Below, in pieces: positions 1,353 through 5,923 of a stretch of DNA of 6,123 bases (position 1 is its first letter; the number at the start of each line of letters is the position of its first letter). Origin of the DNA: Thermoproteota archaeon (GTDB taxonomy: Archaea > Korarchaeota > Korarchaeia > B14-G2); contig QMWA01000107.1 of assembly GCA_003661385.1 (NCBI GenBank), forward strand, positions 1-6,123. The letters are read 5' to 3'. The notes beneath the pieces are model-generated. The model worked only from the letters and a program-made list of their open reading frames with translations. It was not told the DNA's origin and searched no databases. The position numbers and the translations under genes are program-made.

Positions 1353-1517
1353 ATGTCTTGTGGCATTATAAAGCTTCGTGTATCTAAGGATGCCATAAAG
1401 GAGCTATTCAGCTCCAGAAAGATTAGCGTATCTAAAGGTATTGATAAAGTGCTTGACAAATACTCCGAAAAGGTTGAGGTAGATGTATTAAAGGAGTTCC
1501 TTGAAGATAGGAGGTAG
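1353..1517 (+). CDS. VapB-type antitoxin candidate (54 aa)
   Basis: ATG to TAG encodes 54 residues, starting MSCGIIKLRVSKDAIKELF and ending EFLEDRR. The N-terminal strand-like segment IIKLRVSKDA followed by a helix resembles small archaeal antitoxins, whose N-terminus binds DNA and whose C-terminus wraps the toxin. I see no definitive family motif, so the call rests mainly on context. The gene is short, sits directly behind a strong TATA box, and is followed after seven bases by a PIN-domain gene whose ribosome-binding site is built into its last codons (AGG AGG TAG). This is the standard antitoxin-then-toxin order. Codons such as GTT, GAT, CTT and AAA are mixed, without the A/C-ending bias at the 3' end seen in the neighbouring native genes. 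The antitoxin is intact although its toxin partner is broken. Confidence 0.65.
   Translation: MSCGIIKLRVSKDAIKELFSSRKISVSKGIDKVLDKYSEKVEVDVLKEFLEDRR
1509..1515 (+). promoter_or_regulatory. Ribosome-binding site of vapC inside the vapB stop
   Basis: AGGAGGT overlaps the last two arginine codons and the stop codon of the antitoxin gene, with nine bases between it and the ATG at 1525. It fixes the toxin start and shows that the second cistron was translated from a leadered internal site, unlike the leaderless first gene. Confidence 0.65.
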
Positions 1518-1524
1518 TAGGCCA

Positions 1525-1972
1525 ATGAGCTTAGTGATTGATGTCTCAGTTTTCATCGATAGGCTCTTCGTAATATGATGAAGGGCGTAGTAGCAGAGCA
1601 CGCAGCCTCTTCAAGCTTGTGGATGAGGGAGACATTAACATATTTGAGCCTCAGGTGTTTGGTATAGAACTTGCTTCACAGCTGGCTCGAAGAAAACCTA
1701 GAGATGTAGCTAGAAGAATATATGATGAGATAATGGATAAAGTCATCGTTGTTGATGAGATAGGGTACGATCTGCTCCTAGACGTTGCCTTATCAACCGC
1801 TTGCAGAGCTATAGATGCATTTTATATCGCTATAGCAAGCGTCATCTCCGCTATGCTAGTAAGTGCTGACAAAGTAATGGTTAGCAATGCGAGAAAGTAT
1901 AGTGTAGAAGCATACTATATCCACGACTTAAATGAATACAGCACCCTAATGTCGAGAATTAGTCAGTCATAA
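1525..1972 (+). pseudogene. VapC-type PIN-domain toxin, broken by a one-base frameshift
   Basis: The frame opened at ATG 1525 gives MSLVIDVSVFIDRLFVI and hits TGA at 1576. One frame over, the sequence continues as YDEGRSSRARSLFKLVDEGD to TAA at 1970-1972. Skipping one base at 1573-1576 restores a 148-residue protein, the usual size for archaeal VapC. The reconstruction keeps all four acidic residues of the PIN active site: D6 in VIDVS, E48 in FGIELASQL, D97 in CRAIDAFYIA and D115 in VSADKVM. VapC toxins are Mg-dependent ribonucleases that cut tRNA or rRNA and are neutralised by VapB. The rest of the gene has no further damage, so the break is recent, a sequencing error, or bypassed by frameshifting. 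The downstream piece alone could start at GTG 1619, but it would lack D6. Codon use differs from the flanking genes, suggesting acquisition. Confidence 0.82.
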
Positions 1973-2223: not shown

Positions 2224-3435
2224 ATGGAGCCGCTGGTCAGGAGGCATAACCCCTGGTGGAGTGGCGAGAGTGATCCTGTAGTAGAGAGGTGGCGTAGAGC
2301 CTCAGTCAAGTGGATCCCAGAGTGGATTAAGGAAGTCAGCTTAGAGCCCTTCTCCCTCAACTTCGTGATAGGCCCTAGGCAGGTTGGGAAGACAACTGGG
2401 CTCAGGCTCCTCATCCACAGGCTGCTAGAGGATAGGAGCCCATATCAGCTCTTCTACTTCAACTGCGACTTCACAGCTGACATGGAGCACCTCAGGAGGG
2501 TGCTGGACCTCTATCTGTCAGTTAAGAGGGCACATGGCCTCAGCGAGTGCTTCATCTTCCTAGATGAAGTAGGCAGCACCGCAGGCTGGTGGAGGGTAAT
2601 CAAAGGGTACATAGACCTCGGGGCACTCGACGACTGCGTCCTCACCCTAGCTGGGTCATCAACCCTAAGGCTCAAGGGGGAAGTAGAGCTCTTCCCAGGG
2701 AGAAGAGGCAAGGGAACAGATGTAAAAGCCCTCCCCCTAACCTTCAAGGAGTTTGCTGAAGTACACGGCGTAAAAATACCCCTATCAGGCAACCTAGAAA
2801 GGGACATAGCTGAAGCAAAGCTCTACCAGGACAAGCTAGAAGACCTATTCAAGCAATACCTGAAGCTAGGAGGGTTCCCACTCTCAATAAACAGAGACGA
2901 GAGAGCCCCAGAGTACCTGCTCCTAGCCCTCGAGGGAGAGCTACTGAGGCTAGGGAAAAGCCCACAAATCGCAAAAGCCATAATCTCATCCATCATGAGG
3001 AAAGCCCCCTCACCACTATCATACTCAGCCATAGCCAAAGACATAGGAGTCTCGTACAAGACAGTAGAAGACTACATCCAAACACTCAGAAAGCTATTCC
3101 TCCTAGAAATAGCCTACCACAAAGAAGGAAAGAGAATACTATGGAGAAAAGAGAAGAAAATCTTCTTCCTAGACCCATTCATAGCAAACACCCTAGCAGA
3201 GTGGGCAGGCGAAGCCCCCCTACAAGCCTCAATATACGAGTGGGTAACCCAAGCACACCTCCATAGAAAATACGGGGAAGTATACTACTACAGAAACGCC
3301 TATGAAATAGACTGCATAGCCCGAAACCTCAAAATAGAAGTAAAAGCAGGAAAACCCCACAGAAAATACCCAAAAAACACAATCACACTAACACAAGAGG
3401 ACATACCCCCATTCCTATATGCACTAAACACATAA
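2224..3435 (+). CDS. AAA_14 / DUF4143-type archaeal ATPase with wHTH and PD-(D/E)XK-like C-terminus
   Basis: This 403-residue protein has a P-loop near its N-terminus: Walker A GPRQVGKTT (50-58), Walker B FIFLDE (110-115, D114/E115) and a sensor-like LAGSST (142-147). LPLTFKEF (170-177) and YLKLGGFP (212-219) are typical of this ATPase group. A winged-helix-like segment covers about 262-300 (SYSAIAKDIGVSYKTVEDYI). The C-terminus (about 310-403) carries E339, D363 and EVK (372-374), the PD-(D/E)XK-like signature found in DUF4143 domains. These ATPases are abundant in archaea and bacteria, are often mobile or patchily distributed, and their cellular role is not established; nucleic-acid remodelling is a guess. 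There is no signal peptide or membrane helix. The start is set by the leaderless TATA spacing. A/C-ending codons rise from 10 of the first 30 to 28 of the last 30. Confidence 0.92.
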   Translation: MEPLVRRHNPWWSGESDPVVERWRRASVKWIPEWIKEVSLEPFSLNFVIGPRQVGKTTGLRLLIHRLLEDRSPYQLFYFNCDFTADMEHLRRVLDLYLSVKRAHGLSECFIFLDEVGSTAGWWRVIKGYIDLGALDDCVLTLAGSSTLRLKGEVELFPGRRGKGTDVKALPLTFKEFAEVHGVKIPLSGNLERDIAEAKLYQDKLEDLFKQYLKLGGFPLSINRDERAPEYLLLALEGELLRLGKSPQIAKAIISSIMRKAPSPLSYSAIAKDIGVSYKTVEDYIQTLRKLFLLEIAYHKEGKRILWRKEKKIFFLDPFIANTLAEWAGEAPLQASIYEWVTQAHLHRKYGEVYYYRNAYEIDCIARNLKIEVKAGKPHRKYPKNTITLTQEDIPPFLYALNT

Positions 3436-3439
3436 AACA

Positions 3440-3768
3440 CTAACCCACCAACACAAATAACAGCCCAACACACAGCAAACAACAGGACAAATACAGAAAA
3501 CACCTCCAGCCAAAACCTAAAAGAGAAAGCCAGAAAATGAGGCTAAGCAAACCGAATACAAAAGCAACCCCAATGAAAAAGTCAGCAGGATCCCTAGAGG
3601 AGTCTACCAGCCTCCTGTAAAGTTGTAAAAGCTTAATGAAGGTCGACGATAAAGCCTTTGTTCTAAGCTTAATGACAGCTTCTATAGCTTGCTCTGGGTT
3701 TTAGCTGCTTCCATAGCCGAGTAGGTGTGTTGTGCCACATCTGAGGCTGATACCCTGTTCGGTTTACT
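3440..3768 (-). pseudogene. Possible decayed minus-strand gene, unidentified, tail-to-tail with the ATPase
   Basis: On the minus strand an open frame from 3768 reads SASDVAQHTYSAMEAAK. A one-base shift in the AAAA run near 3700 then continues it as NPEQAIEAVIKLRTKALSS and on through DPADFFIGVAFVF to TAG at 3442-3440. All arginines are AGA/AGG, as in real genes here. No ATG, GTG or TTG opens the second frame near its 5' end, so it cannot stand alone. The hydrophobic C-terminus (about 3570-3440) resembles membrane helices, but it is also what antisense of A/C-rich, T-poor DNA would give, so that part is doubtful. It ends four bases from the ATPase stop on the other strand. I do not recognise a family. 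Confidence 0.25.
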
Positions 3769-3818
3769 TTAAGCTTGGTTTAGAGGCCTTCAGGCTGCCA
3801 GCAGCATCCAGGTGGCTT

Positions 3819-3850
3819 ATGCTACATTGGTACGCTAACCAATGTAGCAT
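3819..3850. repeat. Perfect 13-bp stem-loop
   Basis: ATGCTACATTGGT (3819-3831) and ACCAATGTAGCAT (3838-3850) are exact reverse complements around a 6-base loop (ACGCTA). It is the strongest simple hairpin seen in the window. It carries no T-run directly after it, so it is not a classic terminator. Confidence 0.7.
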
Positions 3851-3853
3851 CTT

Positions 3854-3886
3854 CTCTTCTCTTGCTGACGAAGAGAGGAGCTCCTC
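3854..3886. repeat. Second stem-loop (10 bp) merging into a 12-bp palindrome
   Basis: CTCTTCTCTT (3854-3863) pairs with AAGAGAGGAG (3871-3880) over ten consecutive pairs, one of them G-U, with a 7-base loop. The 3' arm is shared with GAGGAGCTCCTC (3875-3886), a perfect 12-bp palindrome, so alternative pairings are possible. It starts three bases after the preceding hairpin. Confidence 0.55.
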
Positions 3887-3935
3887 GCTGCAGGAGATGG
3901 GCTTTTAGCTTGAACCTAAAGGCCTTAAGCACCCT

Positions 3936-3974
3936 TATAGCAGGGAGGCTGAAGGAGGCTATAGCAGGGAAGCT
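3936..3974 (+). repeat. Two-copy direct repeat, 24-bp period
   Basis: TATAGCAGGGAGGCT (3936-3950) recurs as TATAGCAGGGAAGCT (3960-3974), with one mismatch in 15 and an offset of exactly 24 bases. In the decayed plus-strand frame it encodes IAGRL and IAGKL eight codons apart. The periodicity in multiples of three supports a coding origin. Confidence 0.6.
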
Positions 3975-3996
3975 CGATGCCCGCGAGCTACAGTAG

Positions 3997-4588
3997 TATG
4001 GGCTTTAGCACCCTGAACCCCTAACTCAATAACCTGACTTTCCTTTTAGTGTGGCTGTTAGCTGGCTTGAGCTTCATTCTGCCAACAGTCTTAACTTCCA
4101 ACTTCCTCAATAGGCTTTAGGCAGCACCATATACACTACTCGCGTCAGCAAGAGTTCAGTCTCCTTGCTAGCACTAGGCTTCTTAACGTTTCACATTCTC
4201 ACTCTAACATAACCTAATTAAGCTCTCACTAGAAACTGCTTATAGGCTTTGACCAGGCTGTTCTAACCAGCAGTACGTAGCTTAACTTAAGCTAGGTGAG
4301 CAGCTCCAGACAGTAAGCCTCTGGCAGCATGTCGACCACAACACTTTTAAGGCATAAAATTAACCCTTAGAAAAAACAGTGTCTATCTTACTTTCCTTTC
4401 ACTTTTTACTTTCTTCTTGACCTGTAGTGGCTTAGGTGAGCTGGTAAGGTTGCCTAAAGAGGCCTTCCCTGTTGGAGGTAGGGTGGATAGGAGGCTACCG
4501 CGGTAAGCCTTTACCATACGCTACATAGGTAGCTTAGACGGAAGCTAATGCAACGTTAACCTCATAGGTAGGGTTAATCCTGCTGGGA
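3997..4588. other. About 590 bases without a supported gene
   Basis: Both strands carry frequent stops in all frames, and I see no tRNA, rRNA or CRISPR signature. Small items include a TATA-like TTTTAAGG at 4345-4352, a pyrimidine tract at 4387-4418, a nearly perfect palindrome at 4492-4510 (AGGCT, then the self-complementary ACCGCGGT, then A, then AGCCT), and a 6-bp stem TAGCTT/AAGCTA just after it. The stretch from about 4440 onward includes short protein-like readings (for example ELVRLPKEAFPVGGRV) that are interrupted quickly. It is probably decayed coding DNA. Confidence 0.45.
4387..4418 (+). terminator. Pyrimidine (T-rich) tract, possible archaeal terminator
   Basis: This 32-base run contains only three purines, all A, and several T3-T5 clusters. 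Oligo-T stretches can terminate archaeal RNA polymerase without a hairpin. No transcript ending here is evident, so the call is tentative. Confidence 0.22.
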
Positions 4589-4870
4589 ATGGAGATAGTG
4601 ACCTCAGGGAAGGGGATACCGGCTCTGCTAGGAAGGCTAGAGACAGTAGGAAGCAGGAGGCTATATCCTAGGGAAAGCCACCTACATGATAGAAGCCTAC
4701 ACCTTCACCCACTATCAGAGCTCCTCAACACACTTAAGCTAGGGCGTACAGCAAAAGAAGCTGAAGCCGAGAAAGCGGTAAGAGAGCTAGTAGAAAGAGC
4801 ACAGCAAAAATACCAGGGAGAGCTAAATATCGTAGATGAGCTAGACCAGGTAAGAGCGCTTCCAGATTAA
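4589..4870 (+). CDS. Hypothetical ORF of 93 codons, probably a fragment of a decayed gene
   Basis: ATG 4589 opens 93 codons to TAA at 4868. The second half looks like genuine protein: a charged amphipathic helix at about residues 53-75 (TAKEAEAEKAVRELVERA), then YQGELNIVDELDQVRALPD, with A-ending codons, AGA arginines and GAG/CTA usage typical of native genes here. Residues 30-45 (HLHDRSLHLHP) look unusual and may mark a frameshift. The same frame remains protein-like after the stop, with only TAA 4868 and TAG 4931 between 4589 and 5023, so this is more likely a piece of a longer inactivated gene than a complete one. No good promoter or Shine-Dalgarno site precedes the ATG. I do not recognise a family. 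Confidence 0.35.
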   Translation: MEIVTSGKGIPALLGRLETVGSRRLYPRESHLHDRSLHLHPLSELLNTLKLGRTAKEAEAEKAVRELVERAQQKYQGELNIVDELDQVRALPD

Positions 4871-5026
4871 TATGGAGGTGAATGGAAGGCTTCTTCTGCG
4901 CCTTTAAGCGAGATTGCTTCTAGGTTCAATTAGGTGATGTACATGGAGTCTATGCTTGCTGCTCCGTGGGGTAACCCTGGAAGCCTGGTTGGAGTGGGGT
5001 TAGAGAGCATGTTGAGGATATCGTGA
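4871..5026 (+). pseudogene. In-frame continuation of the 93-codon ORF beyond its stop
   Basis: In the same frame as the preceding ORF, the sequence reads GGEWKASSAPLSEIASRFN, then TAG at 4931, then MYMESMLAAPWGNPGSLVGV and so on to TGA at 5024-5026. The two blocks have sensible composition (Trp, Pro and Gly-containing motifs) and look like decayed protein. A perfect GGAGGTGA (4874-4881) lies here but has no start codon at a usable distance. The neighbouring frame from about 5030 to 5098 also has a short protein-like run (ADPADPPRAGVRF). Assignment to one original gene is inferred. Confidence 0.3.
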
Positions 5027-5113
5027 CTTTGTAAGCGAGTTTTACAGCGGTGATGGGTGCTGATCCAGCTGATCCACCTAGGGCTGGTGTGAGGTTTTGA
5101 GTAGGGGTTAGAG

Positions 5114-5345
5114 GTATGATGTGAGCTTAACTTATCTTATTCAAGCTCATTGGGATAGGGTCTAGGGTTGTTAGAGGGTTATGTTGGCTTCTTGATAGTA
5201 TGGGAGCTGTTGTCTCTTATATCTGAGCCTACAAGTACTTGGTGTAGGGCTTGCTTCGCAGCTGGTGTCTAATGGGTTTTAGTGAGGCTGTGGCTTATGC
5301 TAGGATGCTAGGTATGCTGCTAGAGCCTGTAGATTTATTAGGGAG
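5114..5345 (+). pseudogene. Heavily decayed second vapC (PIN-domain) gene
   Basis: Pieces of a PIN protein appear in order but in different frames: YDVSLTYL (catalytic Asp region, from 5115), LFKLIGIGSRVVRGLCWLLD (to about 5197), SEP (5222-5230), LGVGLASQLVSNGF (5238-5279) and SEAVAYARMLGMLLEPVDLL (5281-5340). Each aligns in sequence with the upstream VapC (DVSVFIDRLF, LFKLVDEGD, FEP, FGIELASQL, then the following helix). At DNA level 5219-5265 matches 1640-1685 at 38 of 46 aligned positions with one gap. At least three frame breaks and loss of the GIEL glutamate (now Gly) mean it is inactive. The part encoding the third and fourth acidic residues is not recognisable. Its 3' end overlaps the tail of the protease gene on the other strand. 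Confidence 0.6.
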
Positions 5346-5923
5346 TGGGCTACTATGCTCGGGGCTATGGTATCCCACTTGAGCACAGAGTAGCCTAATG
5401 CTAGTGCTATGAGGAGCATTGTTGGAAGCATTGGCGTAGGAACAGCCTTGAAGTGTAGTAGGGTGAAGGCTAGTGAGGAGGCTGCTAGAGCCTTGTAGTC
5501 GCCGTACTGCCTCAGCCCGGCTAGGATGGCACCCCTGAACACAAGCTCCTCAGCTACTGGGGCTAAAGCCAGGAGGACTGGTATAGCTAGGGGAAGTGAG
5601 GCTCCAGCTACAGGAGGATTATACTCTACTTTACATATGCGTGTCGTGATGAGGCCTCCAGCTAACTGAAGCCCAGTGCAGGCGATGAAGAGTAAAGCTC
5701 CCCTCTTTAAGGTAGATTTGGGTTTAAGCAGCTTTCTGAGTTCTCCTCTCCTCAGTGCTGGCAGCAAGCAGAGGACTGCAGCTACATCCCCAACTCCACC
5801 TGAGACTACAGCTAGGTTCCCGCTGCTTAGCTTCCCTGAAGCCAGGTGGTAAACTGTGGAGGATGCTAAAGCTAGAGCCACAAGGCTTAGAGCCCCAAGT
5901 GCAGCTAAGGCCAATCCTCTCAT
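5300..5923 (-). CDS. CPBP family intramembrane metalloprotease (CAAX protease / Abi type)
   Basis: This 207-residue, very hydrophobic protein carries the three motifs of the CPBP (ABI, PF02517) family in order: EELVFR (E125, E126, R130), FTLLH (F153, H157) and HSLIN (H193, N197). These residues form the metal/water-activating site in the membrane. Helices are visible near residues 5-28, 38-57, 74-94, 109-123, 145-160, 166-181 and 189-205. In eukaryotes Rce1 trims prenylated CAAX proteins; archaeal substrates are unknown, and some prokaryotic members are linked to bacteriocin or phage resistance. The ATG at 5923 is supported by a TATA box at leaderless distance. A/C-ending codons rise from 16 of the first 30 to 21 of the last 30. 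Only about eleven codons follow the HSLIN motif, and these overlap the decayed vapC. It is apparently monocistronic. Confidence 0.92.
   Translation of the reverse strand: MRGLALAALGALSLVALALASSTVYHLASGKLSSGNLAVVSGGVGDVAAVLCLLPALRRGELRKLLKPKSTLKRGALLFIACTGLQLAGGLITTRICKVEYNPPVAGASLPLAIPVLLALAPVAEELVFRGAILAGLRQYGDYKALAASSLAFTLLHFKAVPTPMLPTMLLIALALGYSVLKWDTIAPSIVAHSLINLQALAAYLAS

Follow-up and report, generated by a model that had tools for sequence, protein, structure and literature searches.

A probable short relic of a vapC toxin gene near a VapBC locus in an archaeal draft genome

Toxin-antitoxin modules are described as mobile elements with a patchy distribution; truncated or inactivated copies are to be expected, and inactivated ones are considered likely among the PIN toxins (PMC2701414). 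The stretch of DNA analysed here (the window, 6,123 nucleotides, which is contig C107 of an archaeal draft genome of 206 contigs and 1.74 Mb, ~91% complete) carries a VapBC pair and a block at 5219-5267 that is very probably what is left, short and inactive, of a gene encoding a PIN ribonuclease toxin of the VapC family. It belongs to the subfamily of the vapC gene at 1525-1972. Set against the VapC toxins (PIN domain, PF01850; here the archaeal subfamily L042-L047), the block encodes the PIN stretch EPQVFGIELASQL but covers only ~15 of ~150 codons, has a broken frame, has lost a conserved Glu and cannot encode a toxin. Set against the vapBC pair at 1353-1972, it is of the same subfamily, on the same strand and 83% identical over the block; the pair, however, retains a full-length toxin gene with one lesion and an intact antitoxin, and the relic has neither. 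It is of the same kind as other degenerate toxin-antitoxin loci of prokaryotes, with nothing distinctive about it. Given that VapBC modules are mobile and often decay, a relic adjoining a VapBC locus with a once-frameshifted toxin is an ordinary kind of thing.

The VapBC locus and its setting

The features of the window are:

182-973: DUF362 gene
1353-1972, plus strand: VapB-VapC pair
1353-1517, plus strand: vapB antitoxin gene, partner of the first vapC copy (54 aa, intact frame)
1525-1972, plus strand: first vapC copy (vapC1), full length in the family model except for one frameshift near 1570
2224-3435, plus strand: AAA_14/DUF4143 ATPase gene
Between the end of the ATPase gene (3435) and the protease gene (5300): spacer of ~1.9 kb without recognisable genes
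5219-5267, plus strand: probable vapC relic, found by blastn, a nucleotide profile of foreign vapC genes and a frame-tolerant family profile
5300-5923, minus strand: CPBP/Rce1-type intramembrane protease gene, intact frame (PF02517, E 1.6e-17, residues 110-198)

The first toxin gene was matched by nhmmer along 1526-1968 (E 6.9e-124), with one insertion near 1570 relative to six relatives, and shares 74-77% amino-acid identity with its closest relatives. The related VapC genes L042-L047, which reach 77%, lie in draft genomes of Desulfurococcales and other members of the Thermoproteota. A search of public genome contigs with vapC1 alone returned no match; a four-protein alignment used as the query in public genomes found 50 relatives. 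The vapB product gave no convincing Pfam or NCBIfam match, a similar ORF of 53-54 aa lies upstream of vapC in L042-L047, and the antitoxins of the first pair and of the relatives end in ..EEDVLAEFLKERR. A frameshift or stop also disrupts two of the six nearest vapC relatives, both in other draft genomes (L045 1378-1825 and L046 851-1309), so the toxin subfamily may often be inactivated, or the draft assemblies may carry errors. In the source genome, two other PIN matches (L005 1501-1857 and L011 1501-1656) have one in-frame TAG each, and further PIN-domain matches are partial. Matches to solved structures of designed pentatricopeptide proteins lacked any stretch that passed and were attributed to composition.

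The product of the ATPase gene matches the PADLOC candidate defence family PDC-S01 (E 5.5e-33). Frame-wise translations of 3436-5345, in three plus-strand frames and one minus-strand frame, gave no Pfam match. The spacer also holds a palindrome with a 13-bp stem at 3819-3850 (folding z-score -7.5), of which a search of the genome found no full second copy.

The core block and its flanks

The original prediction read 5114-5345 as a second, ruined vapC gene, starting from an alignment of 5219-5265 with 1640-1685. This alignment proved exact: 38 of 46 bases are identical (83%), with one gap, eight transitions and no transversions, and comparison of the window with itself by blastn gave E = 1.7e-5. 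The strict local score was 45, against a maximum of 33 in 1000 dinucleotide shuffles (Gumbel p = 1.7e-6). Among 296 real prokaryotic segments of 691 bases used as a control, the 99th percentile was 33 and the highest score 41, those scoring 36-41 being from loci fetched for matching the window. A nucleotide profile of six vapC genes from other archaea (L042-L047), from which vapC1 of the window was excluded, matched the window in nhmmer only twice, at 1526-1968 and at 5219-5266 (E 6.6e-6). Homology of 5219-5266 to VapC family members is significant by this foreign profile, and since the profile finds the block independently, the reading of the block as a vapC relic holds regardless of vapC1. 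A frame-tolerant profile of the six proteins scored 47.3 on the block, the null maximum being 36.3; 0 of 400 and 0 of 60 shuffles reached the score of the block. When the source genome was searched at the DNA level with the first vapBC pair as query, the block at 5219 was not listed, probably because it offers no long exact seed.

The block encodes VapC codons 39-53 (IFEPQVFGIELASQL), one inserted base shifts the frame inside it, and Gly is read at the conserved PIN Glu of 'GIELASQL'. With its frame interrupted internally and without the conserved PIN Glu codon, the block makes no product. Stops are present in all three frames of 5100-5420, and the combination of open frame and conserved acidic PIN residues that marks a functional VapC was not found in 5219-5267.

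Tested at the DNA level, with frame tolerance and with the family profile, the sequence on either side of the block (5085-5218 and 5268-5345) resembled VapC no better than shuffles did. Anchored DNA extension from the block scored 0 on both sides, a frameshift search of each flank alone with the family profile scored near the null mean, and when the block was fixed and the flanks shuffled, the best left score was reached by 164 of 500 shuffles and the best right score by 500 of 500. By the same three tests the order of peptide fragments, which had been thought to follow the PIN domain, was not above chance. The second ruined vapC is thus upheld for 49 bases, by the independent profile and the frame-tolerant search, but not for ~230 bases, the flanks being equal to shuffles. 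Collinear homology along most of the vapC gene was not found around the block, and six VapB queries detected no vapB-like sequence above shuffles upstream of it in 4860-5125. The right part of the predicted range is overlapped by the 3' end of the protease gene, which runs on the minus strand from 5300, and 5300-5345 lies inside its intact frame.

Further candidates were rejected. A 5' continuation of the relic at 5104-5218 (plus strand), where VapC-like peptides (DVSL, SRVVRG) can be picked out by eye, scored as shuffles do, and a match to L047 that seemed to extend to 5154 was lost once the block was fixed. A peptide pieced together from the relic by eye had no Pfam match. At 4471-4739, where vapC1 alone gave its best frame-tolerant match, a possible third vapC relic was unseen by the other family members and by the family profile.

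Origin of the relic

The simplest account, and the most likely, is that the block is a remnant of a second VapC copy that is mostly lost. A complete toxin-antitoxin pair would once have stood at this site, having arrived by transfer or duplication, and would have decayed because nothing prevents the decay of a toxin that is not under selection; the rest of the copy may have gone by deletion, been rearranged or changed too far by mutation to be recognised, or may never have existed here. In favour of a relic is the six-gene model, whose sole match besides vapC1 is the block, and decay of such genes is plausible here because other PIN matches in the same genome are partial or contain stops. Against it, the block is only 49 bases long, neither the 5' nor the 3' flank can be recognised, and the sequence upstream shows no remnant of vapB. 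Furthermore, simulated in-place decay of a 237-base copy left a lone island of this kind in at most ~8% of runs. It is therefore probable that loss of the surrounding sequence, or relocation of a short fragment, played a part, and translocation of such a fragment must be taken seriously as an alternative to decay in place.

It is accordingly a tenable, if tentative, proposal that illegitimate recombination brought a vapC fragment of ~50 bases to this site, by copying or by transfer, and that a complete second toxin gene never existed there. This is a sub-case of the relic reading, and the confidence placed in it overlaps with that in the best explanation. The edges of the block are sharp, with 83% identity inside and nothing outside, a pattern that decay in place rarely gave in the simulation. 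Nevertheless, neither a mechanism nor a repeat at the edges came to light, the same appearance would result from deletions and indels to the left and right, and the block shows no clear preference for vapC1 (38 of 46) over the copies of other species (36 of 46).

Another sub-case, which is somewhat unlikely, is that the relic is a decayed local duplicate of vapBC 1353-1972 and not the result of another arrival from elsewhere. The two lie in the same orientation 3.5 kb apart and the best single match of the relic is vapC1, but self-comparison of the window revealed no other duplicated flank, there is no vapB relic, and the match of the relic to vapC1 is hardly better than its matches to L042 and L045. 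The original prediction suggested that the same toxin family had arrived and been inactivated at this locus more than once. Taken further, VapBC modules of one subfamily would come in and be silenced here again and again, leaving toxin relics of different ages side by side in this archaeon. Repeated arrival and inactivation survives as one of several histories and is an unlikely one; the block is nearly as close to the vapC genes of other species as to vapC1.

Finally, the similarity might be due to chance, from shared composition and codon use, as the block is short, was singled out by a reader in one of many windows and has flanks that fail. This is very improbable for several reasons: the E value of 1.7e-5 and p of 1.7e-6, the detection of the block by an independent family model, the real-sequence controls that stay below its score, and its position on a conserved PIN motif.

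Substitution pattern and significance

Transition-only differences are ordinary for this vapC family. Among its members 59-81% of the differences from one another are transitions. When comparable 46-column windows with 7-9 differences are taken, 110 of 880 (12.5%) show transitions alone; between the relic and other relatives there are 1-4 transversions. A longer, doubtful alignment contains 44 transitions and 47 transversions. Deamination-driven mutation of silent DNA, raised in the original prediction because all eight substitutions are transitions, can be dismissed as the cause with near certainty, since the directions are mixed (at six of the eight sites it is the relic that has G or C, and only two changes run in the direction of its deamination) and since no directional C-to-T or G-to-A excess beyond the family background was found.

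The main value of the analysis is one of calibration: a match made by eye was real at its core, whereas its extension to 230 bases and the reading of a mutation spectrum were not. The relic is one more sign of PIN toxins coming and going in archaea related to hyperthermophiles, as is already accepted.
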